Source of the DNA: Leptotrichia wadei
GTDB taxonomy: Bacteria; Fusobacteriota; Fusobacteriia; Fusobacteriales; Leptotrichiaceae
Length of the DNA stretch: 64,000 nt
NCBI RefSeq assembly: GCF_007990445.1
Contig: NZ_AP019841.1
Span: 1,364,001-1,428,000, forward strand
Reading direction: 5' to 3'
Numbering within the stretch: the first letter of the stretch is position 1; each line of letters begins with the position of its first letter. The position numbers and the translations under genes are program-made. Shown piece by piece: positions 25,199-54,288 of the stretch. The notes below the pieces were generated by a model, which was not told the origin of the DNA, searched no databases, and saw only the letters and a program-made list of their open reading frames with translations.

Positions 25199-25597
25199 GT
25201 GGCAGAAAAAATTCAATATTTAGGAACTGGAAGAAGAAAAACTTCAGTAGCAAGAGTAAGATTAGTACCAGGTGAAACTGGAGTGACAATTAATGGAAAA
25301 GATATGAGAGAATATTTTGGTGGAAGAGAAATCTTAGCTAAAATCGTAGAACAACCATTAGAATTAACAGAAACTTTAAACAAATTTGGAGTAAAAGTTA
25401 ATGTAAACGGTGGTGGAAATACAGGTCAAGCAGGAGCTATCAGACACGGTGTTTCAAGAGCATTATTAGAAGCTGACGCTGAATTAAGAGGAGCTTTAAA
25501 AGAAGCAGGATTCTTAACAAGAGATTCAAGAATGGTTGAAAGAAAGAAATACGGGAAAAAGAAAGCAAGAAGAAGCCCACAATTCTCAAAAAGATAA
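25199..25597 (+). CDS. rpsI: 30S ribosomal protein S9
   Basis: 132 residues, beginning [15 protein letters not shown] and ending with the basic tail [12 protein letters not shown] that reaches the ribosomal P site. GTG start, AGGAGG upstream. The prophage begins within about 100 bases of its stop; the gene is undamaged. Confidence 0.97.
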
Positions 25598-25612
25598 TTG
25601 TATTATTTTATA

Positions 25613-25648
25613 TACCCTTGGAAACATTGGTTTTCAGGGGTTTTTATT
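25613..25648 (+). terminator. terminator of rplM-rpsI
   Basis: A hairpin made of CCCTTGGAAAC and GTTTTCAGGG, allowing G-T pairs, around a short loop. It is followed by a T-rich run. Confidence 0.75.
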
Positions 25649-25722: not shown

Positions 25723-26749
25723 CTATATCTTTTCCACCGCTTTTCTCAGCTCTTCAATGTCCTTGTGAGTATAAAATTTTTCAGTTGTTGTATAACTGTT
25801 GTGTCCTATTAATTTCTTAACTGATGTTTTATTTGCGTCTGCATTACTTAGTAATGTTGCAAATGTATGTCTAGTATCGTGTGGCTTATGATTCATTCCA
25901 AGTTCTTCCATAATAGGTTTAAATTTTTCTTTGTAATAATTATCATATTTCATTTGTTTGCCTTTGAAGTTTACAATCAAGTATTCGTTTTTGGTATTCA
26001 TCCTATTTTCAACAAGTTTTAGTATTTTAGAATGGATAGGAACTAGTCTATCTTTACCAGCTTCTGTTTTCAGTCCACCTTTAATGATTCTATCTTTCAA
26101 ATCAATATCACTATTTTTAATTTCCAGCAATTCTCCAATTCTAAATCCTGTATAAATAAGAATTAGAATAGTGTCAATCCAGTCATTTTCATCCAGCAAA
26201 TCCCACAATCTTTCAATCTCTTTATTTGTAAAAGGCTTTCTTGTGTTTTCTTCCGTATTTTTTCCGATATCTATATATTTGCTATAATCTTTTGAGATGA
26301 TATCATTTTTCATAGCATAAGCGTATAGCTGATTAAAAGAATCTTAATTTTTTCTTCGAACCATATTTGATTTTAGTGCTGGAAAAAACTTCTTGCAAAT
26401 CAGAAGATTTTAAATTTACAAATCGTAATTGGTGTAAAATTTTAGAGTTCTTAAATGCAGCAATATATCCTAATTGTGATGAACGACCAATTGTATCAAA
26501 TTTTTCTGTTTTCCATTTTTCGTAAACTTCCGAAAATGTGAGACTTTGAACATCTACATTATACGGATGTTCATTATAATAAAATAATTGTTGATTAGCT
26601 TCTTTTTGAGTTTTATAATAACCTATATATTTATATTGTTGTTTACCAGTCTTATCCCAATGAGTTGTAACCCTTACAGCAAAAGGTTTTCTTCTTTTGC
26701 CTCTTAATCTAATTACAGAACCATAACCGTTCGGATTTCTCATTTTCAT
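25723..26749 (-). pseudogene. int: tyrosine integrase, split by a frameshift
   Basis: The N-terminal part (26749 to 26333) has the arm-binding start MKMRNPNGYGSVIRLRGK and core-binding helices. The catalytic part (frame ending at 25723) has Arg in YTGFRIGEL, HDTRHTFATLL, the second His in LIGHNSYTT and Tyr in EKFYTHKD, so all active-site residues are present. The parts are in different frames; the joint near 26340 is an A-rich run, and removing one base restores one protein of about 341 residues. Would catalyse site-specific integration and excision. It lies at the end of the leftward operon. Damage may be real or a sequence error. Confidence 0.85.
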
Positions 26750-27327: not shown

Positions 27328-28209
27328 TTAAAACAAATCTTCTGAATTAAAATTCTCAACTATTTCATTATCACTTTGAGTATCGTTATCTGCTGTTTCC
27401 TCTTCGACAATATCGCTTGCATTGTCAGGACTGTCTACATATTCAACTTCCACGTTTCCGTTTGGCTCGACTTCTTTTATAACAGCCTGATCTACTTTCT
27501 GTGCTGTCTGCATTTCAATGCTTAGAATTCCAAATTTACTCAACAATAATTTTAATACAGTTTTCTTTGCCATACTGTCAAAATTTGTTTGCCAACTTGA
27601 AGAACTTTTAAGAAATGTTTTACTGAATTTCTTAGCATGTTCTCTTACTTCTTCCTTGCTCATTACATTGTATTTCTCGAATCCATTTGTGGTTTGAAAA
27701 TATGCAATATAATGAGTTACTTCATCGCTTATTTTTCCATCAAGATTATATTTAAGCTCATCAGTAATTGGATCATAGCTTTCAAACTGTCCTTCGTAAA
27801 GTTCTGTAACATTAATTTTTTTATATTGTCCAGTTCTAATTGCAAGCTGTATAAATCCTTTGTAGCCCAATTGAAATTGTGCCTCGTTCTTTTCTTGCCA
27901 GTTGCCGCGATTATCTTTGTATTTTCTTTTGTAAGGCACAACATAGGCGAAACCTAAATTTGGATCAATTGGTAAATCCAATGTTGCAGCTATTGCTCCA
28001 GCCTTCAAAACGCTTTGTGGCTCTGCTTCCTGTAATTGTTTATTTCCATTTGTAGTATTCAGCAGTGAAGTTAAGAATCCAGCTGCCTTGTTTCCTAGTA
28101 ATTCTTTGAATTTATTTTTTGTTCTTTCATCATTTATCATTGATTTTAGTGTAGCTGCACCTACTATCCCTTTTGTTTGTTTTTTAGGATTTGTTAAAGT
28201 TCCTGCCAT
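27328..28209 (-). CDS. recT: RecT-family single-strand annealing protein
   Basis: 293 residues with RecT family landmarks: the conserved helix region LKAGAIAATLDLPIDPNLGFAYVVPY and FQLGYKGFIQLAIRTGQYK. The acidic C-terminal tail is rich in Glu/Asp/Asn. It promotes annealing of homologous single strands and works with the YqaJ exonuclease two genes upstream. The ribosome site AAGGAG overlaps the end of the preceding gene. Confidence 0.9.
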   Translation of the reverse strand: MAGTLTNPKKQTKGIVGAATLKSMINDERTKNKFKELLGNKAAGFLTSLLNTTNGNKQLQEAEPQSVLKAGAIAATLDLPIDPNLGFAYVVPYKRKYKDNRGNWQEKNEAQFQLGYKGFIQLAIRTGQYKKINVTELYEGQFESYDPITDELKYNLDGKISDEVTHYIAYFQTTNGFEKYNVMSKEEVREHAKKFSKTFLKSSSSWQTNFDSMAKKTVLKLLLSKFGILSIEMQTAQKVDQAVIKEVEPNGNVEVEYVDSPDNASDIVEEETADNDTQSDNEIVENFNSEDLF

Positions 28210-29131: not shown

Positions 29132-29812
29132 TTAACCTCCATAACTTTTTATCATTCTTGGTTCTGTATCGTTTTTGACACATTCCCAAAATTCAATTTC
29201 TTTATTTAAAAGTTCCTGTATCTCATCTTCCCAATCTGACCTATTGATTACAATTGTCTGCAACCTTTTATCCAGATCAAACGGTGTTGTATCTTCGTTT
29301 TTAAAACATTCAAATTTTATTTCAGCAACTAATACGGCGTATTCATAGCCAGTCACCAAAAAGTAATGTAAAATTTGATATAAATAGGTTTCAGGAATAT
29401 TGTTCTGCCATTCCTCAACATATTTATTCCACTTATTTATTGTAGTTGTCTTTATTTCAAGTATCCCTTTTTTATCCTGATAAACAATTTCTCCATCTAA
29501 ATTAGCCCGTATGAAGTCATATTTTGGATGGATGTACATTTTATTGACTTCTAATATTTTTTTATCGAGATTGTCTTCTTTGTAGGAATTAAATATATTT
29601 TTTTCAAGGTTCTTACCTCTTTGAGCTGCAGGGCTTGCGAAATTATTTTGTATTCTTCCAGTTTTATCTTTCCAAACATCAATAATATTTCTATATTTAT
29701 TCTTTCCCATTATCGCTCCTGCATCGCTTCCACCAATCCCTTTTTTTCTTATGCTTAGCCATTCTTCTTCGTTTTTATAACTTATTGCTTTATAGTTCAC
29801 TTTCTTCTCCAT
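29132..29812 (-). CDS. YqaJ-family phage exonuclease
   Basis: 226 residues. It has WLSIRKKGIGGSDAGAIMG near the start, RGKNLEKNIF, and the nuclease metal site spread over DGEIVYQDKKGILEIKTTT. The fold is that of lambda exonuclease: it resects double-strand ends and loads RecT on the 3' strand. The pairing with recT makes a Red-type recombination module. The stop falls within the ribosome site of the next gene. Confidence 0.87.
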   Translation of the reverse strand: MEKKVNYKAISYKNEEEWLSIRKKGIGGSDAGAIMGKNKYRNIIDVWKDKTGRIQNNFASPAAQRGKNLEKNIFNSYKEDNLDKKILEVNKMYIHPKYDFIRANLDGEIVYQDKKGILEIKTTTINKWNKYVEEWQNNIPETYLYQILHYFLVTGYEYAVLVAEIKFECFKNEDTTPFDLDKRLQTIVINRSDWEDEIQELLNKEIEFWECVKNDTEPRMIKSYGG

Positions 29813-31976: not shown

Positions 31977-32176
31977 TTTGTAACCTCGTTTTTTAAAAAT
32001 TTTATATTTGTATTGTTCTCTAAAAGACGTTCTATAAGTTCACAAGTTTCATTTACCGTTAACTTGCATCTTTTAGAAATTGTTAAAACCTCAAATCCGC
32101 TTAGCCCTTTCCTTATCTCACACTTTGTGAGCTTTAAATCACTTATAGTTTTTGCAAGTTCACACATCTTGTCCAT
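31973..32176 (-). CDS. small phage protein, unknown function
   Basis: 67 residues, starting MDKMCELAKTISDLKLTK. The start overlaps the upstream stop by one base and the stop overlaps the downstream start, so it is coupled at both ends. It is probably a helix-turn-helix-sized protein but has no confident match. Confidence 0.5.
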   Translation of the reverse strand: MDKMCELAKTISDLKLTKCEIRKGLSGFEVLTISKRCKLTVNETCELIERLLENNTNIKFLKNEVTK

Positions 32177-32523
32177 TACATTTCTCCTAAACTAAATTTT
32201 CGTTTTCTTCCTACAATTACACATTTTATATTCGATACATTGTGAATCATATCGGATTTTTTCATAATCTTTATCAAATCTTCGTTTCCGTACTCTGATG
32301 GGCTTAATTCGTATTCATCATATATTCCGTCGTATTCAAAACCTTTTATTTCATCTTCTGTTACATCAGGAATTCTCTTTTTCAGTTCTTTAAAACCGCT
32401 TTCATAGTATTCCATTTTTGCTATGCCTTGCTGTGGATAACCAAAGCAATTTTCTTCTGCCCATTCTCTTATTATTTTTTTTCTTGCTCCTTCTTCATAT
32501 TTTAATCCTTCGCTAAAACTCAT
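32176..32523 (-). CDS. first gene of the leftward early operon, unknown function
   Basis: 115 residues from ATG 32523 (MSFSEGLKYEEGARKKI), chosen because AGGAG is nine bases upstream; ATG 32532 touches that site. Acidic overall. It lies directly downstream of the repressed leftward promoter, the place where phages often keep anti-repressor, antiterminator or Gam-like proteins, but sequence alone does not say which. Confidence 0.55.
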   Translation of the reverse strand: MSFSEGLKYEEGARKKIIREWAEENCFGYPQQGIAKMEYYESGFKELKKRIPDVTEDEIKGFEYDGIYDEYELSPSEYGNEDLIKIMKKSDMIHNVSNIKCVIVGRKRKFSLGEM

Positions 32524-32549
32524 TTTTATCATCTCCTGCTATATTTTTT

Positions 32550-32565
32550 CTTGCAATAATGCAAG
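32550..32565. promoter_or_regulatory. operator copy 1
   Basis: CTTGCAATAATGCAAG, a palindrome with 6-bp arms, downstream of the leftward promoter start and before the first early gene. Confidence 0.75.
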
Positions 32566-32618
32566 ATAATTTTTAAAAAAATATAGATGTTTATTGGCTT
32601 TTTTCCATCTACAAAACT

Positions 32619-32647
32619 ATTATACCACATAACTTGCAATAATGCAA
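32619..32647 (-). promoter_or_regulatory. leftward early promoter (PL-like)
   Basis: Minus strand TTGCAT (32647 to 32642), 17 bases, TATAAT (32624 to 32619). The -35 box lies inside operator copy 2, so repressor binding would block it. Confidence 0.75.
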
Positions 32648-32648
32648 G
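32633..32648. promoter_or_regulatory. operator copy 2
   Basis: CTTGCAATAATGCAAG, identical to copy 1, covering the -35 box and part of the spacer of the leftward promoter. Confidence 0.8.
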
Positions 32649-32665
32649 ATATTTTTTTAAAAAAA

Positions 32666-32681
32666 GTTGCAACTATGCAAT
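32666..32681. promoter_or_regulatory. operator copy 3, in the repressor promoter
   Basis: GTTGCAACTATGCAAT matches 12 of 16 positions. It contains the -35 box of the rightward promoter, so repressor autoregulation is likely. Confidence 0.65.
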
Positions 32682-32696
32682 TTTTTAAGGTATAAT
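32667..32696 (+). promoter_or_regulatory. repressor (lysogenic) promoter
   Basis: TTGCAA (32667-32672), 18 bases, TATAAT (32691-32696), 33 bases before the repressor ATG. Confidence 0.65.
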
Positions 32697-32728
32697 ATAC
32701 TATAAAATTCAGATTAGGAGTAACAGAT

Positions 32729-33148
32729 ATGGAAGACAAGGAAAAATTGAGAAAGATTATAAAAGAAACTAGGTTGCAAAAAAATATAGCTAGGGATAAA
32801 ATATCTGAATTACTGAAAAAAAGAGGGATAAAATATGCCGAATCTTCATTATCACGTTATGAAAACGGTATAACAGAAAGCATAAAGGCAGAAGTATTGA
32901 AAGGGATTTCAGAGATATTAGGGCTTGATGTAATTGAAATGTATAAATTGGCAGGATTGCTAAATGAAAACGAAGATATAAGATTTGCTAAATTAAATAA
33001 AAGAGAACGTGATCAGTATAGTGAAATTGAAAAAGGGGCAGCCTACTTTTTTAACGATAATAGCATAAGTGATGAAGATAAGAAAAGATTGCATGATAGT
33101 TTGCAAGAACTTTTTTTTGACGCTAAAATGAAAAACAAAAGAAAATAG
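32729..33148 (+). CDS. phage repressor, XRE-family helix-turn-helix (ImmR/cI-like)
   Basis: 139 residues. The N-terminal helix-turn-helix includes ARDKISELLKKRGIKYAESSLSRYENGIT, about residues 20-50; SSLSRYENG is the recognition helix. The C-terminal helical part is likely for oligomerisation; there is no LexA-type protease domain. Because an ImmA-type metalloprotease follows by nine bases, this is the ImmR/ImmA arrangement known from ICEBs1 and many prophages: the protease destroys the repressor to induce. The operators are probably its binding sites. Confidence 0.85.
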   Translation: MEDKEKLRKIIKETRLQKNIARDKISELLKKRGIKYAESSLSRYENGITESIKAEVLKGISEILGLDVIEMYKLAGLLNENEDIRFAKLNKRERDQYSEIEKGAAYFFNDNSISDEDKKRLHDSLQELFFDAKMKNKRK

Positions 33149-33157
33149 AGGTTTTAT

Positions 33158-33580
33158 ATGAGAAAACGTAGAAATATGAAACTCAGAGTAAAAAATTTGG
33201 TAGAGAAATATAATACTAGTAATCCGTATATATTGTGTGAAAAATTAAACATTGAAATAAGATACTTTTATTACGAAGGTATAAAAGGCTTCTTTAGGCG
33301 AATATTAAAAAGAAAATACATTGTTATAAATGAAAAACTGGACGAATATTCAAAGTTAGTTGTGCTGTGCCACGAATTAGGACATGCGATTTATCACAGT
33401 TCAAAAAATAAACTTCTTATGAAAATTAATTTTTTTAATTATAATCCAGAGTTGGAAAACGAAGCAAATGAATTTGCAGCAGAATTAATGAAATATCAAG
33501 AAGAAGTTAGTTATGAAGTTGCTAGAAATTGTGATTTAGGATTGCAAGTGTTGGAAGAAATGAAAAGATATATAAAATAA
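33158..33580 (+). CDS. ImmA/IrrE-family metallopeptidase
   Basis: 140 residues with the zinc motif HELGH in VVLCHELGHAIYH (about residues 74-78) and a following Glu in NEANEFAAELM. Members of this family cleave the XRE repressor encoded beside them. It is cotranscribed with the repressor. The N-terminal basic segment (MRKRRNMKLR) may be over-extended; an ATG at residue 7 is an alternative. Confidence 0.87.
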   Translation: MRKRRNMKLRVKNLVEKYNTSNPYILCEKLNIEIRYFYYEGIKGFFRRILKRKYIVINEKLDEYSKLVVLCHELGHAIYHSSKNKLLMKINFFNYNPELENEANEFAAELMKYQEEVSYEVARNCDLGLQVLEEMKRYIK

Positions 33581-33633
33581 TAAAATTTGGGGTTAATTTT
33601 GGTTTCGGAATATAAAAAGATGGAGGAATCAAA

Positions 33634-33819
33634 ATGAAAAAATTATTTGTAATTTTGACATTAGCATTTATCAGTACTAATGCATTTACGGAAACATTAT
33701 ATTTTAAAAATTGTAAGGAAGCTAGATCAAAAGGCTATAAAAATATCAAAAAGGGTGAGCCTGGATATGCAAGACATTTAGACAGGGATAGAGATGGGAT
33801 CGCTTGTGAAAGTAAATAA
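33634..33819 (+). CDS. secreted excalibur-domain protein
   Basis: 61 residues. The signal peptide is about 1-19 (MKKLFVILTLAFISTNAFT). An excalibur-type calcium-binding domain follows, with YFKNCKEARSKGY and the loop DRDRDGIACE. Such domains occur on surface proteins and secreted nucleases. Here it stands alone within the lysogenic transcript, so it could be a lysogenic-conversion factor changing the host surface. Confidence 0.78.
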   Translation: MKKLFVILTLAFISTNAFTETLYFKNCKEARSKGYKNIKKGEPGYARHLDRDRDGIACESK

Positions 33820-33846
33820 TTTATAAAATATAAATGGAGGAAATTT

Positions 33847-34516
33847 ATGAAAAAAATGCTGTTGATTTTGTGTTTAGGTGTTTTAATCGCATCATGCGGA
33901 GATGGAAAAGGGGTAGAACTCAAAGAAACTAAAGCAAATAAAAAAGTAGAAAAAGAAAACACTCAAACAGAAGCCTATGAAGTTGAATTATCTGCAGGAC
34001 ATTATGTTGTAGGAGTAGATATTCCTGCTGGGATTTACGATATAACTGCTATTAAGGGTACTGGAAATGTTTCAAGTAGTAACATGTATGATGGGGGAAT
34101 CAATCAGGTGATGGGAACACAAGATGATGGTGTAAGTGTTAAAGAATTTAAAAATTTAAAATTAGATAAAAAAGATATTTCTATTACAGTAAATGGCACT
34201 GCAGTTATAAAACTTTCAAGTAAGGCTGCACAAACCAAAAATTTAAAACCCAAAGAAAATCCAGCCAAAAAAGAATATACTTTCAGTAGTGGTAACTATG
34301 TTGTTGGAAAGGATATTGAACGTGGAATTTACGATGTTATCGCAGTAAAAGGAAATGGGAATATTTCATCAGATAATATGTTTGAGGGTGGTATCAACGA
34401 AGTTTTGGTACGAGCGGGGACGGATTCTATGTAAAAGAATTTAAAATGCCTATTTTAATGATGATGTCCAATTAACAGTTTCAGGTGTCACTATTAAATT
34501 AGTTCCAAGCAAATAG
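33847..34516 (+). pseudogene. lipoprotein with two repeat domains, frameshifted near the C-terminus
   Basis: Lipoprotein signal MKKMLLILCLGVLIASCG with lipobox Cys. Two related units of about 45 residues start HYVVGVDIPAGIYDIT and NYVVGKDIERGIYDV and share GGINQV/GGINEV. The frame stops at 34434. Adding one G near 34,417 and one A near 34,445 restores an ending (YVKEFKNAYF, then LTVSGVTIKLVPSK) that matches the end of the first unit, to a stop at 34516. Surface-anchored in lysogens; exclusion of other phages is one possibility, not shown. Confidence 0.72.
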
Positions 34517-34582
34517 TGTCAGTAAAATTGATTTTTATAGAGTTATTTCAAAATTGGAATAACTCTTTTTATTCAAAAAATT

Positions 34583-34598
34583 CTTGCATTAACGCAAG
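34583..34598. promoter_or_regulatory. operator copy 4, in the rightward lytic promoter
   Basis: CTTGCATTAACGCAAG matches 14 of 16. It contains a TTGCAT -35 box; TATCAT at 34607-34612 is a candidate -10, 16 bases on, 20 bases before the next gene start. Confidence 0.7.
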
Positions 34599-34631
34599 AA
34601 TTGTGGTATCATAATACAGAGGTGGTGAAAA

Positions 34632-34787
34632 ATGAAAATTGATAAATATACACAAATCAGAATGAAAATGATAGAAAAAAAAATTTACTGGAAAGATATA
34701 ATGGATAAAATTGGGTATTCTAACTGGGGATTAAGGCTGGCAATAAAAAATAATAATTCTGAAATAATTAAAAAAGTTGAAAAATAA
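34632..34787 (+). CDS. small Cro-like DNA-binding candidate
   Basis: 51 residues, starting MKIDKYTQIRMKMIEKKIYW, with GGTGG upstream. It is short, basic and helical. WKDIMDKIGYSNWGLRLAI could form a helix-turn-helix. It is the first gene after an operator-controlled promoter, and another operator copy follows it. Position and size are Cro-like; sequence identity to Cro is not evident. Confidence 0.55.
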   Translation: MKIDKYTQIRMKMIEKKIYWKDIMDKIGYSNWGLRLAIKNNNSEIIKKVEK

Positions 34788-34818
34788 TAGATGACTTTTA
34801 ATTTTTTTTGAAAATTTC

Positions 34819-34834
34819 ATTGCGTTAATGCAAG
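34819..34834. promoter_or_regulatory. operator copy 5
   Basis: ATTGCGTTAATGCAAG matches 13 of 16 of the operator palindrome. It lies just downstream of the Cro-like gene. Confidence 0.6.
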
Positions 34835-34867
34835 AAAAAATTCAGGAATCGAGGGAGGAGGTGTGAG

Positions 34868-36229: not shown

Positions 36230-36256
36230 AACAAAAAAAGCACTCCGAAGAGTGCT
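36230..36256 (-). terminator. hairpin with minus-strand T run
   Basis: AGCACTC-CGAA-GAGTGCT (36239-36256); on the minus strand a run of seven T follows, so it would stop leftward transcription coming from the replication region. On the plus strand there is no T run. Confidence 0.6.
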
Positions 36257-36271
36257 AGAAAATAAAAGATA

Positions 36272-36322
36272 CTATATATTGTGTTTATTATAACATAGTA
36301 TGTTTAAAAACACAATATATAG
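36272..36322. repeat. 15-bp perfect inverted repeat before the replication gene
   Basis: CTATATATTGTGTTT (36272-36286) and AAACACAATATATAG (36308-36322) with a 21-base spacer, ending 13 bases before the replication gene start. It is distinct from the repressor operators, so it is a candidate site for a second regulator. Confidence 0.55.
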
Positions 36323-36335
36323 GGAGAGGGAAAAG

Positions 36336-37181
36336 ATGAGATTTTCAACATATTTAAACAATGCGAAATGTATGGAGTGGCAAATAAAAGCTACTCAAGG
36401 AATTTTATTTTCTTTGCTTTACGAGGCACCTGCTTGGGCAAAAGAAGAAATTATTGAGAATAAAACATATTATTTTGTATCAAGAAATTTGATATTAGAT
36501 GAACTGCCAATGTTTTTTGAAAAGTCTGATACTGTTTACAGAAATTTGAAAGCACTACAAGAAAAAGGACTTATTGAATATATTAAACAAGGTAAAAAGG
36601 ATTTAATAAGAATTACTGCAAAAGGTAAAACTTGGAATGAATTTAAAGAAAATAATTCGGAAAAAAATCCGTCTTTTGAAGAAAACTCGGAAAAAAATCC
36701 GAATAATCTCGGAAAAAAATCCGAAAAAGAGTCAAAAAACTCGGAAAAAAATCCGACAAATAATAATACTATATATAATTATAATAATACTAATATATTA
36801 AATAATATATATAGTTCGGTGATAGATTATTTGAACAGAAAAACAGAACGTACAGGAAAAGAAAAATATAGTTCAACATCACCTAAAACACAAAAACTAA
36901 TAAAAGCAAGGCTAAGAGAAAAATATGAGCTGGAAGACTTTAAAACCGTTATAGACAAGAAGTGCAAAGAATGGCTAGGCACAGATATGGAGAAATATTT
37001 GCGTCCAGAAACGCTTTTTGGAAACAAGTTTGAGAGTTATTTAAAACAAAAAACAGGAGGAAATAACAATGGAAACACAAGGAATAAGAGAAGCTATACA
37101 GGAAATGCTGAGAAAAAAGGGTTTGACAAGCACAATGATTATAAGCCAGACTACTCAAAGGGATTCGATGACTGGAATTAG
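36336..37181 (+). CDS. phage replication initiator (winged helix plus conserved phage C-terminal domain)
   Basis: 281 residues from ATG 36336, with GGGAGAGGG upstream; ATG 36300 lies inside the inverted repeat. The N-terminal winged helix is about 20-105. A linker contains repeated SEKNP units encoded by the iterons. The C-terminal domain is recognisable by SSTSPKTQKLIKARLREKY, VIDKKCKEWLGTDMEKYLRP and TLFGNKFESYL. Such proteins bind origin repeats inside their own gene and recruit the helicase via the DnaC-like protein that follows. Confidence 0.82.
   Translation: MRFSTYLNNAKCMEWQIKATQGILFSLLYEAPAWAKEEIIENKTYYFVSRNLILDELPMFFEKSDTVYRNLKALQEKGLIEYIKQGKKDLIRITAKGKTWNEFKENNSEKNPSFEENSEKNPNNLGKKSEKESKNSEKNPTNNNTIYNYNNTNILNNIYSSVIDYLNRKTERTGKEKYSSTSPKTQKLIKARLREKYELEDFKTVIDKKCKEWLGTDMEKYLRPETLFGNKFESYLKQKTGGNNNGNTRNKRSYTGNAEKKGFDKHNDYKPDYSKGFDDWN
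36657..36755. repeat. four replication iterons, likely phage origin
   Basis: TCGGAAAAAAATCCG occurs exactly four times: 36657-36671, 36687-36701, 36709-36723 and 36741-36755. Each copy has CGGA/TCCG arms. Immediately downstream, 36757-36815 is almost pure A and T, a candidate unwinding element. The arrangement resembles lambda ori inside gene O. Confidence 0.75.
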
Positions 37182-37833
37182 TGCTCCAAGTGTATCAGCT
37201 AGTATTTTTAAAGAGAAAGAAATTGAAAAATATATGGGCTTATCAAAATTAATGGAACAGGATTGGCATAAGAGATTTGAAAATGCAGAAGTCAAATCAA
37301 CCAAGGAAATGGAATTTAAAAAGTCATTTGAGAAGTATTGCAAAAACTTTGAAATAATCAAACAAAAAGGGCTTGGGATATTAATGAGCGGTAATCCTGG
37401 AACTGGCAAAACTTATTATACAACTTGCATAATGAATGTTTTGAATCAAAAATATCTTGTTTACAAGACAACTTTATCTGATTTGCTAGAAGAAATCAGA
37501 AAAAGCTATAAAAGTTTTGAAAATGAGAATGATGATTTTTTATTCAGCAGATTATCCAAAGCGGAATTGATAATTTTTGATGACCTGGGAAATGAATTTT
37601 TAAGCGACTGGGGAAAAGAAAAAATGTTTATGATCCTGAATTTCATTTATGAGAACAATAAGCCTCTAATAATAAACACAAATTTAGATGCTAAGCAATT
37701 ATCAAGTTTTTTTAACATAAACGGCAGCGATAAATTATTAGACAGAATCCGCAGTAAATGTAAAACATATATTTTTAGCTGGGAAAGCCGAAGAAAAGAT
37801 TTATACAAAAAAGACTTTGAGGAATTATATTAG
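37168..37833 (+). CDS. DnaC-like helicase loader ATPase
   Basis: 221 residues from ATG 37168 (MTGISAPSVSASIF), preceded by AAAGGG. It overlaps the upstream gene by 14 bases. An alternative ATG at 37069 with GGAGG nine bases upstream would give 254 residues but a 113-base overlap. Walker A is SGNPGTGKTY, Walker B is LIIFDDLG, and an arginine sits in DRIRSKC. It loads the host DnaB helicase at the phage origin. Confidence 0.85.
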   Translation: MTGISAPSVSASIFKEKEIEKYMGLSKLMEQDWHKRFENAEVKSTKEMEFKKSFEKYCKNFEIIKQKGLGILMSGNPGTGKTYYTTCIMNVLNQKYLVYKTTLSDLLEEIRKSYKSFENENDDFLFSRLSKAELIIFDDLGNEFLSDWGKEKMFMILNFIYENNKPLIINTNLDAKQLSSFFNINGSDKLLDRIRSKCKTYIFSWESRRKDLYKKDFEELY

Positions 37834-37841
37834 GAGGAATA

Positions 37842-38135
37842 ATGGATAAAATAAATCAATTGGAAGGTAAAGTAATATGTTTTAAAGGTCTTCCAGAAGA
37901 TTTTTTTGAACAGACAGAAAAACTAAAAAAAATATTTGAAGAAAAAAATATGAAAAAAGAAGAATTGGTTTTTATTTTAGAAACATTGGAATTGCAAGAA
38001 ATAAAAGCAGAAAAAAGTGTTGAACAAAGATCTTTGATTTATAAAGAAATTTTATTTTTAATTTTTTTATCAATAGTGATTGCTATTATTACAACAATCA
38101 CTATATTGTTAGTAAGAAAATTACTTATTCTTTAA
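37842..38135 (+). CDS. small protein with C-terminal membrane anchor
   Basis: 97 residues: soluble acidic helical part then one strong membrane helix (LIFLSIVIAIITTITILLV). AGGAGG upstream. Its end overlaps the convergent minus gene by 15 bases. Function unknown. Confidence 0.55.
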   Translation: MDKINQLEGKVICFKGLPEDFFEQTEKLKKIFEEKNMKKEELVFILETLELQEIKAEKSVEQRSLIYKEILFLIFLSIVIAIITTITILLVRKLLIL

Positions 38136-38486
38136 TATTTTTATTAAATCAAAAATAAAATCTTTAAGTTTGTTATTAAAAATGCTGAAACGAGATTTTT
38201 TTAAAATTTTTTTTGATAAATTTGATAAAAAATAGAATTCTGTTTCGACATAGGAGATTTTACCAAAAGAATTTTTGTGTTTTTTATATAATCTACAAAT
38301 ATATGGGACACCAAAAATTGAAATATCATTAATTTGAATACTATCAAATTTTTCGAGATTTTCCAATCGAAAAGATGTATCAAATTTATATTCTGGAAAT
38401 TTCTTGAAAATTTTATGTCGTGGAACAACTTCATATTTATTAATAAATTTTAAAATCTTTATATCAATATTGTCTATGAAAAACAC
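38121..38486 (-). CDS. minus-strand gene of unknown function, possibly a winged-helix protein
   Basis: 121 residues, GTG start with AAAGGGG upstream (MFFIDNIDIKILKFINKYEV). The first 60 residues look like a winged helix (ILKFINKYEVVPRHKIFKKF). Opposite direction to the replication operon, so it is perhaps expressed in the lysogen. No named family. Confidence 0.5.
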   Translation of the reverse strand: MFFIDNIDIKILKFINKYEVVPRHKIFKKFPEYKFDTSFRLENLEKFDSIQINDISIFGVPYICRLYKKHKNSFGKISYVETEFYFLSNLSKKILKKSRFSIFNNKLKDFIFDLIKILKNK

Positions 38487-38599
38487 CCCTTTCTGTATAA
38501 AATTATTGTCGCTAATATTATATCACAAAGGGAGAATATATAGAATGGTGGAGAAAATGATGAAAGTCAAGATGAAATAAAATAAGGAGGAAATAAAAA

Positions 38600-38851
38600 A
38601 TGCTAAAAGAAAATGTAAAAGCAAAAGTAATAGTGATAGATTTTAATGACCGCAAAGGGTGGAAATTGTATCACAACGAGGACTTATATGGAAACACAGA
38701 GATTGCAGATGACAGATTCTGGAACGATGTGCAGGAGGGGTATTACAAGTTCAGCAAGGGGACAACTTTAATTGCTGATATTAAATGCCCCTGGAAAATT
38801 GAAGAGCCTTTAAAAATTCTGAAGGTACATGAGGTGATTTATGGTGATTAG
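38600..38851 (+). CDS. phage protein of unknown function
   Basis: 83 residues with AGGAGG upstream (MLKENVKAKVIVIDFNDRKG). Aromatic-rich and beta-looking. It overlaps the resolvase gene by 11 bases, so it belongs to the replication/recombination transcript. Confidence 0.55.
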   Translation: MLKENVKAKVIVIDFNDRKGWKLYHNEDLYGNTEIADDRFWNDVQEGYYKFSKGTTLIADIKCPWKIEEPLKILKVHEVIYGD

Positions 38852-39233
38852 GTTGGAATTACCAGTTTACTGGAACGTAAATAAAAAACAGCAGACACTT
38901 ATCGGTATGAACTGGTATCAAAGAGCAAACGGATTTCAAATTAATGAAGTCAAGAAAGCGTATCACGAATTAATCAGATTGAAGCTACTCAGCAACAAAG
39001 AAAAAATAAAAGGAAGCTATCAAGTAAGGTATAAATATTTTTATAAAAATGATAATTCTGATTTAAAAAACGTAACATCTGTTATTGATAAATTTTTTAA
39101 CGATGCCTTGCAGGAACTTGGGATTGTTAAAAATGACAATGTAAAATATTTTAAAGAATCAATTGACCGAGTTGGTGGAATGGATAAGAAAAATCCGAGA
39201 GTTGAAATAGAAGTGGAGGAAATAAAAAAATGA
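38841..39233 (+). CDS. RusA-like Holliday-junction resolvase
   Basis: 130 residues. The C-terminal half has the RusA-like pattern of an Asp-Leu-x-Asn motif then Lys/Asp spacing: SDLKNVTSVIDKFFNDALQE, then GIVKNDNVKYF and DKKNPRVEIEV. The start MVIRLELPVYWNVNKK also fits phage RusA relatives. It would resolve recombination intermediates made by YqaJ/RecT. Its stop overlaps the next start (ATGA). Confidence 0.65.
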   Translation: MVIRLELPVYWNVNKKQQTLIGMNWYQRANGFQINEVKKAYHELIRLKLLSNKEKIKGSYQVRYKYFYKNDNSDLKNVTSVIDKFFNDALQELGIVKNDNVKYFKESIDRVGGMDKKNPRVEIEVEEIKK

Positions 39234-39709
39234 TAAATGCAGAAATATTAGATTTAAAAAAAATGGATATAAGATATTTGGAGAAAATGAAAAAACTTGT
39301 CAAGGAGTTCTATGTGGCTTTTGGACAAGAGAAATATCTGAACAAGGAAGTATATAGAGCAACAAGCATTGAGCGGATGAAATTAAGAAATAGATTGTTT
39401 GATGAAGAACTAAAGGAATTTTTAGAAGCTGAGACAGATGTAGAGAAATTAGATGCTATTTGTGATATGTATTATATAGCGATAGGCACAACACTTGAAC
39501 TAGGGGCATACGGCAACCAGTTTTTTGTAATTGATTATTACAAACAAAGAACTTGGTTTAACGATGAACTAATTTTGGAAGCATTCGAGGAAGTCCACAG
39601 AAGCAATATGTCAAAACTTGAAAATGGAGAAGCTGTTTTCAGGGAAGATGGAAAGATAATAAAAGGTAAAAATTATTTTAGACCTAATTTGAAACAATTT
39701 ATTGAATAA
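39230..39709 (+). CDS. MazG/HisE-like nucleotide pyrophosphohydrolase
   Basis: 159 residues. The metal-binding EExxE...ExxD pattern of all-alpha NTP pyrophosphatases is visible in FDEELKEFLEAETD and LDAICDMYYIAIG. The ending (NMSKLENGEAVFREDGKIIKG) is typical of phage members. It is likely to clean non-canonical nucleotides or ease stringent signalling during phage growth; the substrate is not known. Confidence 0.7.
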   Translation: MINAEILDLKKMDIRYLEKMKKLVKEFYVAFGQEKYLNKEVYRATSIERMKLRNRLFDEELKEFLEAETDVEKLDAICDMYYIAIGTTLELGAYGNQFFVIDYYKQRTWFNDELILEAFEEVHRSNMSKLENGEAVFREDGKIIKGKNYFRPNLKQFIE

Positions 39710-39727
39710 AAAATAGGAGGAATATTA

Positions 39728-40341
39728 ATGAACGAATTAATAAACATAGAAGCTAAAAATACATTGACAAGTTTAGAAGTGGCGGAAATAACAGGAAAAG
39801 ATCACAAAAGTATTTTAAGAGATATCAGGGATGAAATAGATAAATTGGGAGAAGAAAGAGGTCGGCTCATTTTGTGCCGACTGAATATACGGATAATTTT
39901 AACAGAAAACAGCCTGCCTTTTTATTAAATTACAAAGGTGTCTTGCAGCTTGGAGCAAGATATAATGCTGAAACAAGGTTTAAGCTTATCGAAAAAATCG
40001 AACAGCTTCAAAAACCAATGACAGTAGAAGATATGATCATATTGCAGGCAAATGAAATGAAGAGCGTTAAGCATAGAATTGACATCGTGGAAAACAAAGT
40101 TGATAACGAGATAAGAATAGATCATACAGAACAAAGAAAGTTACAAAAAGCAGTATCTATAAGAGTATTTCAAAGACTTGACGTAGTAGATGCAGAAAGA
40201 AAATTAATGTTTTCAGCAATATACAGAGATTTGAAAGACAGATTTGGAGTTGCGAGTTACCGTGATGTGAAGAGAAAAGATTTGAAAAATGCCTTACTGT
40301 ATGTTCAGAACTGGATAGAAAAAGCAGAATTGAGGAATTGA
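39728..40341 (+). pseudogene. Rha/ORF6C-type antirepressor, broken by one frameshift
   Basis: The N-terminal frame (39728-39928, AGGAGG upstream) is a Rha-type DNA-binding domain (SLEVAEITGKDHKSILRDIR). The frame opening at 39874 continues with VPTEYTDNFNRKQPAFLLN and an ORF6C-like C-terminus (RVFQRLDVVDAERKLMFSAI, NALLYVQNWIEKAEL). Adding one T to the T4 run near 39,875 restores a single protein of about 204 residues. Antirepressors of this type control phage induction; function is lost if the shift is real. Confidence 0.75.
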
Positions 40342-40342
40342 G

Positions 40343-40531
40343 ATGGATGAAAAAGAGAAAACATTTAAAAGAATAAAAGAAAAGATATTATGCAATACAG
40401 AAATGAACAACCGTGATATTGAATTTGCAAAACTTAATGCCAATTTATTTAAGGGTATTAAATTTATTAAAAAAAGGAAGGCTAAAAATAAATGGCTTAC
40501 ACAGAAATCGACAGAGAAAATAAGAAAATAA
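40343..40531 (+). CDS. small basic phage protein
   Basis: 62 codons (MDEKEKTFKRIKEKILCN), starting two bases after the antirepressor. Overlaps the HNH gene by 40 bases; the last codons may be out of frame. Unknown function. Confidence 0.4.
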   Translation: MDEKEKTFKRIKEKILCNTEMNNRDIEFAKLNANLFKGIKFIKKRKAKNKWLTQKSTEKIRK

Positions 40532-41268
40532 GGCTTTTTTATCCAACTAACAAGCCAGCAAAGAGGATAAAAGAGTGGCAGGAAGAACTGAAAGGATATG
40601 ATATAGAGATAATACCACAGAACACTATAACAGATGACCAGATGAAACTTTGCTATGTCCTATTTGACCAGTTCGCAAATTCAAAAGGCTGGGGTTTGGA
40701 TTATACAAAAAACTATTTCAAAGCCCTGTTCGGAACAGTATACGAAATAAGTAACTTCAGCCTGTCACCGATGAAAAAGAATGCCTTGACTTTGGAACAG
40801 GCGACAAACTTTATACAGTTTATAATTGAGTTTGCAATAGAGCAAGATGTAAATTTGTATATATTAGATTCAAAGGATAAAAGAGCAAGGCACATAAGGG
40901 AAATAGTGCCAGATATACAGAGATACGTTATAAGTTGTTTGAGAAAAAGAATATGCTGTGTATGCGGAAGACCTCATAATGAATACAATACAGTCGACTT
41001 GGAGCATTACGATAATGTAAATGAAATTGGTGGCTATGAGTTCGATACAGGATTAGAAACAAGATTTTTGAGCTTATGTAGACATCACCATACGGAGATA
41101 CATAACATTCCTAAGCAGGAATTTTTGGAGAAATACCATCTAGAGCCTGTTTACTTGAACGAAAGATTGGTTTATGAGCTTTTAGAAGTTTATCCCAATC
41201 ACTTTAAGTTATTTAGAAAGAGGCTTAAAGATGGGTATTATAGAGGGATTATTAAGGAGGAAAAATAA
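40492..41268 (+). CDS. putative phage HNH nuclease
   Basis: 258 residues. The C-terminal part has a zinc-bound HNH arrangement: CCVCGRPHNEYNTVDLEHYD, then LSLCRHHHTEIHNI. The N-terminal half (KRIKEWQEELKGYDIEIIPQ) is the part shared by replication-region putative HNH proteins of Firmicute-type phages. AGGAAGG precedes the start. Its stop overlaps the next gene. It may serve in recombination or DNA processing. Confidence 0.75.
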   Translation: MAYTEIDRENKKIRLFYPTNKPAKRIKEWQEELKGYDIEIIPQNTITDDQMKLCYVLFDQFANSKGWGLDYTKNYFKALFGTVYEISNFSLSPMKKNALTLEQATNFIQFIIEFAIEQDVNLYILDSKDKRARHIREIVPDIQRYVISCLRKRICCVCGRPHNEYNTVDLEHYDNVNEIGGYEFDTGLETRFLSLCRHHHTEIHNIPKQEFLEKYHLEPVYLNERLVYELLEVYPNHFKLFRKRLKDGYYRGIIKEEK

Positions 41269-41486
41269 TGGAAATATTATATAAAATAACAGGAGTGATC
41301 TTTTCAGTTTCTATTATGGCATTTTCGATATTGTTTATGACAGCTTGCTTTAATAGTGCTATTTATGAATACAAGGAGGCAAAAAACAAAACAAGTTACT
41401 TGCTTTCACTATATATTACACTTTTAATTTCAGGTACTTTAATATTTTTAGCAGCAGTAGGAATAAAAGTAATAGTGTTAGCGTAG
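41268..41486 (+). CDS. small membrane protein
   Basis: 72 residues with two membrane helices (IFSVSIMAFSILFMTACF and YITLLISGTLIFLAAVGI). The start overlaps the nuclease stop, so it is coupled. Function unknown. Confidence 0.5.
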   Translation: MEILYKITGVIFSVSIMAFSILFMTACFNSAIYEYKEAKNKTSYLLSLYITLLISGTLIFLAAVGIKVIVLA

Positions 41487-41531
41487 TTCAGTAGAAAAAG
41501 GTTAGGAAGAAAAATAAAAAAAGGAGAAAGT

Positions 41532-41642
41532 ATGAAAAATAAGGATAGAATGCAGTTTAATTTAAAAAACTGGGAAAAACGTGGTTTCTTTGGAAATCTT
41601 TGGAGTAAAATGATAAAAGAGCAACTTTTGAGAAGATATTAA
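41532..41642 (+). CDS. 36-residue basic phage peptide
   Basis: ATG with AAAAGGAGAAAGT upstream. It starts MKNKDRMQFNLKNWEKRG. The strong ribosome site supports translation. Unknown function. Confidence 0.45.
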   Translation: MKNKDRMQFNLKNWEKRGFFGNLWSKMIKEQLLRRY

Positions 41643-41677
41643 ATAAAGACAAGTATAAAAAGAAATGAGGAAATAAA

Positions 41678-42058
41678 ATGAAACTTATTGAATTATATGG
41701 AATAAAGATAAAAGAATTAACTGAAATATTGAAAGATGAAAGAGTAAGAAAATTTGAAATAAAAGAACACACAAATTACATAGATTATTTCATTATATCG
41801 TTTGAGTTAAATTATGAAAAGAAAATACAGTTTGATATACGTTTAAGTGATATGAAAGATTATCAAAGTTGGGATTTATCAATAGAAGAAATAAGTTCTC
41901 AATTTGATAAAAAATTTACAAAATTAAAAGAATACTTAGAAAGCAAAAATAAAGGTGAGCTTAAAGAACTAGAGAATAAAATATCTGAGTATGAAGCAGA
42001 ACTTAAAAAGGCAAAAGAGCAATATGATAAAATAAACGATTATGGTGAGAACTTATAA
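41678..42058 (+). CDS. phage protein with C-terminal coiled coil
   Basis: 126 residues: an alpha/beta first part (MKLIELYGIKIKELTEIL) and a helix rich in Lys/Glu (about 85-120). GAGG before the ATG. Function unknown. Confidence 0.5.
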   Translation: MKLIELYGIKIKELTEILKDERVRKFEIKEHTNYIDYFIISFELNYEKKIQFDIRLSDMKDYQSWDLSIEEISSQFDKKFTKLKEYLESKNKGELKELENKISEYEAELKKAKEQYDKINDYGENL

Positions 42059-42073
42059 AGTTAGGAGGAATAA

Positions 42074-42388
42074 ATGGCAGAAAAAACAATATTAGACGGA
42101 ATAATTTTGAAAATAGACAACGGTTATCCGTTGTTGCAAGTTGAATACAAAACACTTCTTGAAAAACTTCCTATCATAAAAAAGGAAGAAAGTGTTGGAG
42201 ATTGGCATAGTGGAACAATAAATTATAGAAATGTTAAAAAAGAATACTATGTGGTAGGAAATTCAGAAAAAGGTTATTTTTGGTTTTATCACGCTAAAAG
42301 TGAATGGGTTGTAGATGGATATTTTGATATTAAAAGAGTTCAAAGAAAATCTGAACAAGTCACAGAAACAAGAGTTTGGTATGAATAA
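42074..42388 (+). CDS. phage protein of unknown function
   Basis: 104 residues, AGGAGG upstream, starting MAEKTILDGIILKIDNGYP. Aromatic-rich, soluble. It overlaps no neighbour and is followed 19 bases later by the lipoprotein gene. Confidence 0.5.
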   Translation: MAEKTILDGIILKIDNGYPLLQVEYKTLLEKLPIIKKEESVGDWHSGTINYRNVKKEYYVVGNSEKGYFWFYHAKSEWVVDGYFDIKRVQRKSEQVTETRVWYE

Positions 42389-42407
42389 AAAAAGAAAGGA
42401 AATTAAA

Positions 42408-42680
42408 ATGAAGAAATTATTATTAGGAATTGTAATTTTAGGATCGTTAGGAAGTTGTGCAAGATGGGAAGACAGTCGAAAAGATTGGAAAAGCGATACA
42501 AGTGGATTAAAAAGAATTGTAAGGGTTTATACTCTTGATGGGAAAGTCTTAAAAGAATATAAAGGAATGATAAGGGTAAGAGATTCAAATAAGAGTGGAA
42601 GAATATCGTTAAATTTAATAAACGAAAACAATCGTAGAGTTACAATTGACAATGCAATCGTGATAACAGAGGAGGAATAA
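42408..42680 (+). CDS. phage lipoprotein (DUF5052-like)
   Basis: 90 residues from ATG 42408 (AAAGGAA upstream). Signal MKKLLLGIVILGSLGSC with lipobox Cys17. The mature part has WKSDTSGLKRIVRVYTLDGK, then LKEYKGMIRVRDS and ends IVITEEE. The layout resembles DUF5052 lipoproteins found in phage early regions. Some phage lipoproteins block entry of superinfecting phage DNA; that role is inference here. Confidence 0.6.
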   Translation: MKKLLLGIVILGSLGSCARWEDSRKDWKSDTSGLKRIVRVYTLDGKVLKEYKGMIRVRDSNKSGRISLNLINENNRRVTIDNAIVITEEE

Positions 42681-42902
42681 ATGGAAATAATAATGAGAAT
42701 GATAAGTGGACTAATTACATTAACGGCTGTATTAGCGCTGGTAAGATACATCTATGGATTAGTTATTGTATATAAAAACAAGGCAAAGAGATTCAGATTC
42801 AATATAAGCAATGTAATAATATTTTTAGTTGCTACAATAATAAATTTATTCGTGATTTATGGATTGATTTGGATTATAAGTTTTTTTTCGATTAGAGTAT
42901 AA
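42681..42902 (+). CDS. small membrane protein
   Basis: 73 residues with two membrane helices (MISGLITLTAVLALVRYIYG; VIIFLVATIINLFVIYGLIW). It begins at the base after the lipoprotein stop, with GGAGG overlapping that gene's end, so they are coupled and may act together at the envelope. Confidence 0.5.
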   Translation: MEIIMRMISGLITLTAVLALVRYIYGLVIVYKNKAKRFRFNISNVIIFLVATIINLFVIYGLIWIISFFSIRV

Positions 42903-42949
42903 AGAGGTATAATTAATTATAATAAAAAGGTATTTAAGGAGGATAAAGA

Positions 42950-43192
42950 ATGAATAATTTAATAGCAGATGAAGTGTTTATTTTAAGAAAAAATTTGAAC
43001 CGAGTTAATAGTGAAATAGAAGAAATAGAAAGAGATTTTGAAATAAAATATCCAAACTCGGTGGTAATAATTAATTCTGAATTAAATGATTTATATAAAA
43101 AAAGAAATCGTTTAAGTACAACTTTAGCAGAAATTGAAAGAATATTCGGTCCTGGTCAAATTAAGATAGTAGTTTGGAAACATAGCGATTAA
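42950..43192 (+). CDS. small helical phage protein
   Basis: 80 residues, AAGGAGG upstream. Charged coiled-coil-like sequence (NRVNSEIEEIERDFEIKY). Function unknown. Confidence 0.5.
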   Translation: MNNLIADEVFILRKNLNRVNSEIEEIERDFEIKYPNSVVIINSELNDLYKKRNRLSTTLAEIERIFGPGQIKIVVWKHSD

Positions 43193-43231
43193 AGTGTAGA
43201 ACGAAGAAAATGGAAATTTATAGAGAAAAGG

Positions 43232-43552
43232 ATGTTGAAAATGCAAGAGTTTATTTTTAAAAAAATGAATGAATGGGAATTTTTAAAATTAAAAAATAAA
43301 AGAGAAAGTTTAAAATTTGAATTAAGAGAAATAAATCAAAAGATACAAAGAGAAGAGGAAATAAGGGAAAGAATAGAAGTAAAGGAGCAGTTAAGAGATG
43401 TTGAAATAAAGAAAGTATCAAATATTTTAAAAGTTTTAAACGCAAGAGGAGAATACGAAAATATTTTTTTAGATTGTAAACATGAGGATTACGAAATAGA
43501 ACTAAAAAGAGTGTTGAAACAATATTTAGATTTTTTAGAATATTACTTATAA
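43232..43552 (+). CDS. helical phage protein
   Basis: 106 residues, rich in Glu, Lys and Arg, likely coiled coil (REINQKIQREEEIRERIEVK). Weak ribosome site (GAAAAGGATG). ATG 43241 is an alternative start. Function unknown. Confidence 0.45.
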   Translation: MLKMQEFIFKKMNEWEFLKLKNKRESLKFELREINQKIQREEEIRERIEVKEQLRDVEIKKVSNILKVLNARGEYENIFLDCKHEDYEIELKRVLKQYLDFLEYYL

Positions 43553-43596
43553 ATACTTGAAAATATTGATAAAATAAGGTATAATAAGGAGGTAAA

Positions 43597-43764
43597 ATGG
43601 ATAAAAAATATGAAACCTTAATTGAAGATGATGTTGAAGTTAAATATTTACTTGACGATATTTTGGCTTTAAAAAAAACAAAGAAAGAATGTGAAATACG
43701 AATTGTTTTCAACAAAGGTAAACTTAATAAAAAAAGATATATAGTGAGAAGTTTATATCGTTAA
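43597..43764 (+). CDS. 55-residue phage protein
   Basis: AAGGAGGTAAA precedes the ATG. It starts MDKKYETLIEDDVEVKYLLD and ends basic. Last gene before the terminator at 43.8 kb. Function unknown. Confidence 0.5.
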   Translation: MDKKYETLIEDDVEVKYLLDDILALKKTKKECEIRIVFNKGKLNKKRYIVRSLYR

Positions 43765-43797
43765 ATTACAATTGAATAGGCAAGACTATAGATATAT

Positions 43798-43855
43798 GAG
43801 CCATTAGATAGATAGATTTTAAAATGAGTCTATTTATTTAATGGCTCTTTTTTTG
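43798..43855 (+). terminator. terminator between early/middle and late genes
   Basis: GAGCCATTA (43798-43806) pairs with TAATGGCTC (43839-43847), enclosing AT-rich sequence. It is followed directly by a seven-T run. It separates the small-gene cluster from the packaging operon. Confidence 0.8.
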
Positions 43856-43881
43856 TCTAAAAATCAAAGAAAGGGGGCAAG

Positions 43882-44415
43882 ATGAAGATTGAGAAAATAA
43901 ATATCAATGAAATAATTGAGTATTCAGGAAATGCTAAAGAACATCCTGAATGGCAAATTGAACAGATTAAAAACAGTATTCAAAAATTCGGATTCAATGA
44001 TCCGATTGCGATTGATGAAAAAAATATTATTATCGAAGGACACGGAAGATATTTGGCATTAAAAGAACTTGGATATACAGAAGTTGAAGTAATCAGATTA
44101 AATCATTTAACAGAGGAGCAGAAAACAGCTTATGCTATTGCTCACAATAAATTAACTATGAATACAGAGTTCGATATTGAAAAATTGCAGTACGAGTTGA
44201 ATAAGCTGGAGGTAAATGATTTTGATTTAAGTGTGCTTGGTTTTGAACAGTCTGAACTTGATGAGATTTTGCAAGAGGAAATGGAAGAGCTAGAAATTGA
44301 AGATGAAGATACAGATAACACAGAAGTCAAACGTACTAAATTAATTTGTCCCTGCTGTAATCATATTGCTGAAAAGAGCGAATTTAAGGAGGTAATGGAT
44401 GGCGAAGATACATAA
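43882..44415 (+). CDS. ParB-like nuclease-domain protein
   Basis: 177 residues. N-terminal ParB/Srx fold: INEIIEYSGNAKEHPEWQ, then FNDPIAIDEKNIIIEGHGRY, where the GHGR loop is the phosphate-binding motif. The C-terminal part is acidic, then a possible zinc knuckle (LICPCCNH). Phage genes of this type often precede a methyltransferase and terminase. It overlaps the methyltransferase by 17 bases. Confidence 0.78.
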   Translation: MKIEKININEIIEYSGNAKEHPEWQIEQIKNSIQKFGFNDPIAIDEKNIIIEGHGRYLALKELGYTEVEVIRLNHLTEEQKTAYAIAHNKLTMNTEFDIEKLQYELNKLEVNDFDLSVLGFEQSELDEILQEEMEELEIEDEDTDNTEVKRTKLICPCCNHIAEKSEFKEVMDGEDT

Positions 44416-45199: not shown

Positions 45200-45201
45200 A
45201 C

Positions 45202-47119: not shown

Positions 47120-47131
47120 AAAGGAGGGCTA

Positions 47132-48932: not shown

Positions 48933-48946
48933 GAGTTGAAGTATTA

Positions 48947-49024
48947 TAAATCATTTATGAGTTATTTGATGTCGAATCTCAAAAATTTTATAGAGTATCA
49001 ATATTCTAAATCATTTATGAGTTA
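48947..49024. repeat. two 18-bp direct repeats between minor head and scaffold genes
   Basis: TAAATCATTTATGAGTTA occurs at 48947-48964 and 49007-49024, exactly 60 bases apart, with looser similarity around them. This suggests an old tandem duplication in the 118-base gap. Confidence 0.6.
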
Positions 49025-49050
49025 GAACAAATAATCTAAAGGAGTGAAAA

Positions 49051-49671: not shown

Positions 49672-49680
49672 GAGGTTGGG

Positions 49681-50073: not shown

Positions 50074-50082
50074 GAGGTTGAA

Positions 50083-51138: not shown

Positions 51139-51147
51139 GTGAATTAA

Positions 51148-51632: not shown

Positions 51633-51642
51633 AGGAGTTGAA

Positions 51643-54273: not shown

Positions 54274-54288
54274 AAGGGGGTAAATTAA

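Follow-up and report, generated by a model that had tools for sequence, protein, structure and literature searches.

A probable phage immunity region with five operator-like palindromes in Leptotrichia, and its recurrence with other operator words among Fusobacteriota relatives

The DNA examined here (the window, 64 kb in length) spans positions 1364001 to 1428000 of the 2.34-Mb Leptotrichia chromosome contig and contains part of a prophage, the left end of which is marked by a near-duplicate att core directly past rpsI (about 25581 to 25648) and the right end of which lies about 7.6 kb outside the window. The left operon, on the minus strand, comprises the integrase pieces, RecT (27328 to 28209; TIGR00616, E 2.9e-56), a nuclease of the YqaJ/lambda-exonuclease family (29132 to 29812; TIGR03033, E 2.7e-29) and, as its first gene, a 118-aa protein from the open reading frame list with no function assigned in family searches (32176 to 32532). 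The right operon, on the plus strand, comprises a Cro-like gene, the genes of an O-like replication initiation protein (36300 to 37181; phrog_428, E 4.9e-50) and a DnaC-like helicase loader (37069 to 37833; phrog_50, E 4.8e-46), and terminase. This gene content, recombination on the left and replication on the right, counts in favor of an immunity region in between.

Some further features of the prophage and its surroundings could be noticed. The O-like gene carries three copies of the iteron TCGGAAAAAAATCCGA (36687, 36709, and 36741), likely the phage replication origin, as for lambda O, and the relative G076b likewise has three iterons. The integrase is split into two open reading frames (25723 to 26749), and the frame of a lipoprotein gene is also broken (33847 to 34515); since the integrase is open over the first break in C2, a contig of the same assembly considered below, at least that break may be a sequencing error. 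Two near-identical 365-aa proteins, which we take to be OrfB-type transposase-like, lie some 21 kb to the left of the prophage (window 3346 to 4443) and just past its right att site (L006, 7818 to 8915). The small extra contig C4 (L005, 8,150 bases) contains an 86-bp tandem repeat and shows no kinship to the prophage beyond a weak 80-bp match.

Between the two operons, on the plus strand, lies the repressor operon. Its first gene encodes a 139-aa protein (32729 to 33148) with a helix-turn-helix (HTH) domain and a short C-terminal part, matching HTH_19 (E 9.7e-6) and HTH_3 (E 3.9e-4), both under Pfam's curated cutoff, as well as PHROG transcriptional repressor families. The Pfam and PHROG searches gave HTH hits only, with no match to the S24 self-cleaving domain. 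The AlphaFold model of the repressor is poor (pLDDT 49), neither it nor the adjacent protease matched PDB sequences (for kinship with ImmR, no hit at E 0.1), and nothing useful was retrieved from viral contigs and phage sequences; the closest named relative found by sequence search is in L. hongkongensis. The second gene (33158 to 33580) encodes an M78/ImmA-type metalloprotease with the HEXXH motif H-E-L-G-H (Peptidase_M78, PF06114, E 3.1e-16; phrog_87 metallo-protease, 2e-21). The window presents two elements of an ImmR/ImmA-type switch, namely, a short HTH repressor devoid of a self-cleaving domain and an adjacent M78/IrrE metalloprotease, and, since the protease adjoins the repressor, induction probably proceeds by proteolysis, with the M78 protein as the probable antirepressor. 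Two cargo genes follow, for an exported Excalibur-domain protein (33634 to 33819; PF05901, E 7.9e-18) and for the lipoprotein, which has a repeated domain and a frame broken near its end (33847 to 34434, from the open reading frame list; phrog_32160, function unknown), and a terminator-like hairpin found by the hairpin scan closes the operon (34539 to 34566, plus strand). Downstream, the Cro-like gene (34632 to 34787) encodes a 51-aa four-helix protein (model pLDDT 88.9) with homologues likewise placed in relatives; protein family searches gave no match, and its Foldseek hits, most of them HTH proteins including 434 Cro, SinR, and DdrO, are weak (none at an E value of ≤0.001).

Five palindromes, with the half-site T-T-G-C-R and 6 bp between TTGC and GCAA, are arranged around these genes. 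The sequence-only reading had reported an exact word at two positions and three variants; direct reading bore out CTTGCAATAATGCAAG at 32550 and 32633, with four mismatches (12/16) at 32666, two (14/16) at 34583, and three (13/16) at 34819. It had also claimed that copies overlap the −35 boxes of a leftward, a repressor, and a rightward promoter, and this holds on sequence inspection. In particular, O_L1 (32633 to 32648) covers the −35 of the leftward promoter P_L (32619 to 32647, minus strand; TTGCAT-17-[TGG]TATAAT), with its half-site TTGCAT being the −35 itself; the weaker O_RM (32666 to 32681), of sequence GTTGCAACTATGCAAT and identical in the relatives G076 and G071, covers that of the repressor promoter P_RM (32667 to 32696, plus strand; TTGCAA-18-TATAAT); and O_R1 (34583 to 34598), a match to CTTGCRNNNNYGCAAG, covers that of the rightward promoter P_R (34584 to 34612, plus strand; TTGCAT-17-[TGG]TATCAT). 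P_L and P_R, which were read from the sequence, have a TG before the −10 (extended −10), and relatives share their geometry, with the sites at fixed promoter distances. A generic promoter scan listed P_RM alone of the three, the other two being missed because TTGCAT agrees with TTGACA at only 3/6 positions. All five positions and match counts as first described are correct. The two copies other than these three lie in transcribed leaders, where inspection revealed no promoter overlap: O_L2 (32550 to 32565) is placed between P_L and the first gene of the left operon, and occurs in the two close relatives at −178/−179 relative to the start of the repressor, and O_R2 (34819 to 34834) is placed 31 bp beyond the cro stop, ahead of the next ribosome site, with no promoter or −10 visible by inspection.

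The 14-mer half-site form TTGCRNNNNYGCAA has five matches in the 64 kb, at 32551, 32634, 32667, 34584, and 34820, while shuffled windows gave a mean of 0.31 and a maximum of 2, five being reached in 0 of 100. Elsewhere on the chromosome contig it occurs at seven places, for a chance forecast of 0.31 × 36.5 = 11. The 16-mer CTTGCRNNNNYGCAAG is found on the chromosome without mismatch only at 32550, 32633, and 34583, so that the confinement of the exact 16-mers to this region was confirmed by the full-chromosome scan, and the many equal copies that would speak against it are absent. Among 13 genomes of the genus, CTTGCRNNNNYGCAAG occurs in the 3 that possess this repressor HTH, always at this cassette and at three places per genome, circular copies in the same assembly aside. 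The latter qualification concerns contigs C2 (31.2 kb) and C3 (29.6 kb), whose operator set is identical since both contigs are this prophage in circular form: they are 97 to 99% identical to it over long aligned pieces, gaps far outnumber mismatches (e.g., 64 versus 11), and they are self-closing, with attR joined to attL. Relative to the chromosome, each has one internal gap (window 36242 to 50947 and 43104 to 59278, respectively). We rejected their TTGC sets as evidence of independent homoimmune elements given this identity and att junction, and they add nothing to the case for the operators; the contigs suggest either spontaneous excision with deletion forms or products of the assembly.

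A repressor search over 98 Fusobacteriota genomes gave matches in 32, and 40 stretches around them were fetched, with G071b and G070c, devoid of a usable HTH reading frame, being left out of a de novo scan for palindromes that recur both to the left and to the right of the repressor start (39 loci, 8 shuffles each). The shuffles were exceeded in 19 of the 39 loci and not in the other 20. Three candidates above the shuffles were rejected as operator sets, namely, G015 (a CRISPR-like direct repeat), G090a (a terminator-like stem), and G088c51, and three loci not above them (G024, G029, and G028b) were classed via the TTGCRNNNNYGCAA pattern. An operator set was thus assigned in 19/39 loci, and none was assignable in twenty. 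The words are CTTGC (3 loci), TTTGC (6, two with S24 repressors), TGTAACn6GTTACA (4), GTAACTn7AGTTAC (3), and, in single loci, ATACGTn5ACGTAT, TTTCCGn7CGGAAA, and ACTCTGn5CAGAGT; CTTGC and TTTGC, which both contain TTGCR, are counted separately, and phages Funu2 and phiFN37 add AGTTGAn6TCAACT. The GTAAC word that we forecast for G093 and G094 from their HTH did not appear. In G090 (L058), the repressor has an HTH 51% like that of the window, an S24 tail, and Excalibur and Cro-like neighbors, with degenerate operator-like sites only; its word has possibly diverged, and G090a was left unclassed for these reasons.

The layout of the window recurs among these relatives with seven further words. 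All five sites are present in G076 and G071 at the window distances (−179, −95, and −62) with changed centers, the right-hand pair being 237 and 239 bp apart, and TTTGC-type sites, some with one mismatch, occupy matching places in G027, G024, G029, and G028b. Counting one-mismatch sites, 10 of 21 loci have five sites (the window, G076a, G071, G027, G029, G028b, G054, G060, G019, and phiFN37), and the remaining ones have two to four each. The right-hand pair is 222 to 280 bp apart in the 17 loci, window included, where both sites were seen; a small open reading frame lies inside it in 14 of 15 loci (G085 has none of at least 35 aa), and Funu2 and phiFN37 have an annotated coding sequence there. 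Since a leader operator is kept on each side in loci with unrelated words, these sites may serve a function beyond promoter covering. G076 hosts two prophages, and their operator words differ.

To follow what the word travels with, each repressor was split into the HTH and the C-terminal part (percentages below are HTH/C terminus/M78). HTH similarity is at least 0.69 in same-word pairs and at most 0.57 in different-word pairs. The window and G071 (89/40/44%) share a word, as do G085 and G070a (72/42/50%), while the words differ between G071 and G070a (35/92/93%), between the window and G074 (no alignable HTH/75/91%), and between G024 and G019 (no alignable HTH/80/88%). G027 and G054 share a word with an HTH of 57% and unrelated C termini, that of G054 being S24; indeed, G054 and G060 have an S24 self-cleaving tail on a TTTGC-group HTH, together with the operators of that group. 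In Mantel tests on 15 loci, the p values of which are indicative because only operator-assigned loci enter and related sequences are nonindependent, the C terminus correlated with M78 (rho 0.746, p 0.0005), the HTH with neither M78 (0.009) nor the C terminus (−0.041), and the word with the HTH (0.551, p 0.0005), with M78 weakly (rho 0.20, p 0.0175), and with the C terminus at 0.102 (p 0.14); the set consists of loci with an assigned operator, excluding G028b (a copy of G029), G054, G060, and G090a (no M78), and G070b. The comparison thus indicates that the word goes with the repressor HTH and not with its C terminus, and that the C terminus, unlike the HTH, goes with the protease. The Cro-like gene is exchanged jointly with the word, so that Cro probably also reads it. 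We suggest that swapping the word together with the DNA-reading part of the repressor, within a kept layout, is probably how related phages change immunity.

The operator reading is strongly supported by this comparison, as position and half-sites are kept in two Leptotrichia relatives with varying centers and the words change with the repressor HTH class, and the five palindromes are almost certainly sites for the phage's own repressor. Starting from the established sites, promoter geometry, conservation, and HTH-operator and C terminus-protease linkages, we put at roughly 0.88 the probability that the region as a whole serves an integrated temperate Leptotrichia phage as its immunity region, in which we infer repressor binding, cleavage, and the role of the leader sites as follows. 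Dimers of the repressor would bind the five palindromes; occupancy of O_L1 and O_R1 would mask the −35 boxes of both lytic promoters, P_L and P_R, keeping the recombination and the cro/replication operons off, and occupancy of O_RM would limit the repressor's own promoter. O_L2 and O_R2 may strengthen repression, either by acting as roadblocks or by bridging both ends, and the evidence favors neither. The active M78 protease would probably cut the C-terminal part of the repressor, as ImmA does with ImmR, and after induction the Cro-like protein would probably bind the same sites. The two exported proteins would be cargo expressed in the lysogen.

It is possible, if unlikely, that derepression is not proteolytic, with the M78 protein acting structurally or as an unrelated partner, as its sequence has no match among solved chains and the cleavage is deduced. 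However, the protein has the HELGH motif and a Peptidase_M78 match, it covaries with the repressor C terminus (rho 0.75) and not with the HTH, which fits ImmA-type cleavage in the C-terminal region, and at G054 and G060, where the repressor is of the S24 type, no M78 hit was present within the fetched stretch. We consider it very improbable that the main reader of the sites is the Cro-like protein, or else a host factor, while the 139-aa repressor reads something else: the Cro-like gene does swap along with the word, but the word tracks the repressor HTH, O_RM sits on the repressor promoter, site copies do not occur host-wide, and no other comparable two-sided palindrome set was found near the window repressor, the only other repeated palindrome being in the O-like gene with no left-side copy. 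That the palindromes are terminator or leader-RNA hairpins is scarcely credible, even though terminator-like stem-loops with T runs are listed at 32549 to 32566, 32633 to 32648, and 34602 to 34579, as three copies coincide with −35 boxes, conservation extends to the half-site but not to the stem (at 34583 an A faces a C beside the loop, and 32666 lacks the outer pair), and the word, found across loci at constant distances from the promoters, gives way to another upon HTH swap.

The repressor-operator reading can be placed beside known switches. Lambdoid immunity has reportedly been surveyed by Degnan and colleagues. In lambda, operators flank the repressor operon, with recombination genes to the left, cro and replication genes to the right, and cargo beside the repressor; the window agrees in all these respects, including the covering of one lytic promoter on each side. 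Different from lambda, which has three operators per lytic promoter, the window has one per lytic promoter and one per leader. Moreover, the lambda repressor is transcribed away from cro, its promoter being located at the right operator, whereas here repressor and cro are both on the plus strand; the arrangement is not that of lambda, because P_RM (at 32667) adjoins the left operators and transcription of the repressor operon runs toward cro. Finally, the lambda repressor is self-cleaving (S24, RecA stimulated); an S24 match is present in the relatives G054 and G060 but not in the window repressor.

ICEBs1 (PMC8960796) likewise pairs a short HTH repressor with a metallopeptidase antirepressor encoded after it, with ImmA cutting the C-terminal region of ImmR at F95-M96, and has six repressor sites in promoter regions, as the window has several; the window differs in that the switch belongs to a phage from another phylum, the cassette is flanked by two lytic promoters, and the cleavage is predicted from sequence. 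In TP901-1 (PMC7250872), the distal part of mor contains a third CI operator (OD), at the far end of this Cro-like gene, as O_R2 is past cro, and lactococcal and streptococcal switches are described as having a common topology with differing operator words; however, cI and mor diverge from back-to-back promoters, whereas the window repressor and cro are codirectional, with 1.5 kb between them, and the left promoter is a separate one. Pneumococcal prophages are reported to carry either C1-type or ImmAR-type regulators (PMC12637031), a swap of the whole locus, while here it falls inside the repressor gene. Like the window, Funu2 and phiFN37 have sites at about −168 and −96 (in phiFN37 also −64) and a right pair 226 to 229 bp apart, but their repressors (235 and 228 aa) have an S24-like tail, as judged from sequence, and the word differs; the examined stretches of their records contain no annotated operators. 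A search of titles and abstract openings, with subscription papers largely outside its scope, found no description of operators in Leptotrichia or Fusobacterium phages.

The cargo slot, that is, the segment between the protease and P_R, holds type I restriction-modification-like genes in G071 and, in G077, PDC-M24A/M24B, a candidate defense pair by PADLOC (L043, 3981 to 5260). From these contents, the slot probably carries lysogen-expressed defense and surface genes; ten slot proteins were examined by PADLOC and ten by Pfam, a subset of those listed.

The switch itself is ordinary in kind, and its interest lies in a phylum-wide layout with independently exchanged parts. What sets this variant apart is the repressor promoter at the left operators, the conserved post-cro operator, and the separate exchange of specificity and induction parts. 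We lean toward the view that the temperate phages of Fusobacteriota share one immunity chassis with a fixed five-site layout, post-cro and leader operators that bridge or roadblock, and three independently plugged parts, namely, specificity (HTH, operators, and Cro), induction (an ImmA-cleavable C terminus with M78, or an S24 tail), and a cargo slot, often with antiphage genes. If this is true, the domain swaps that set immunity partners apart from the induction trigger already exist in nature. Operator words and repressor groups would allow a sequence-based forecast of mutually immune Fusobacteriota prophages, and the natural chimeras provide matched pairs (one HTH combined with different inducers, and one inducer with different HTHs) with which the determinant of DNA specificity and the recognition target of the M78 protease may be tested.
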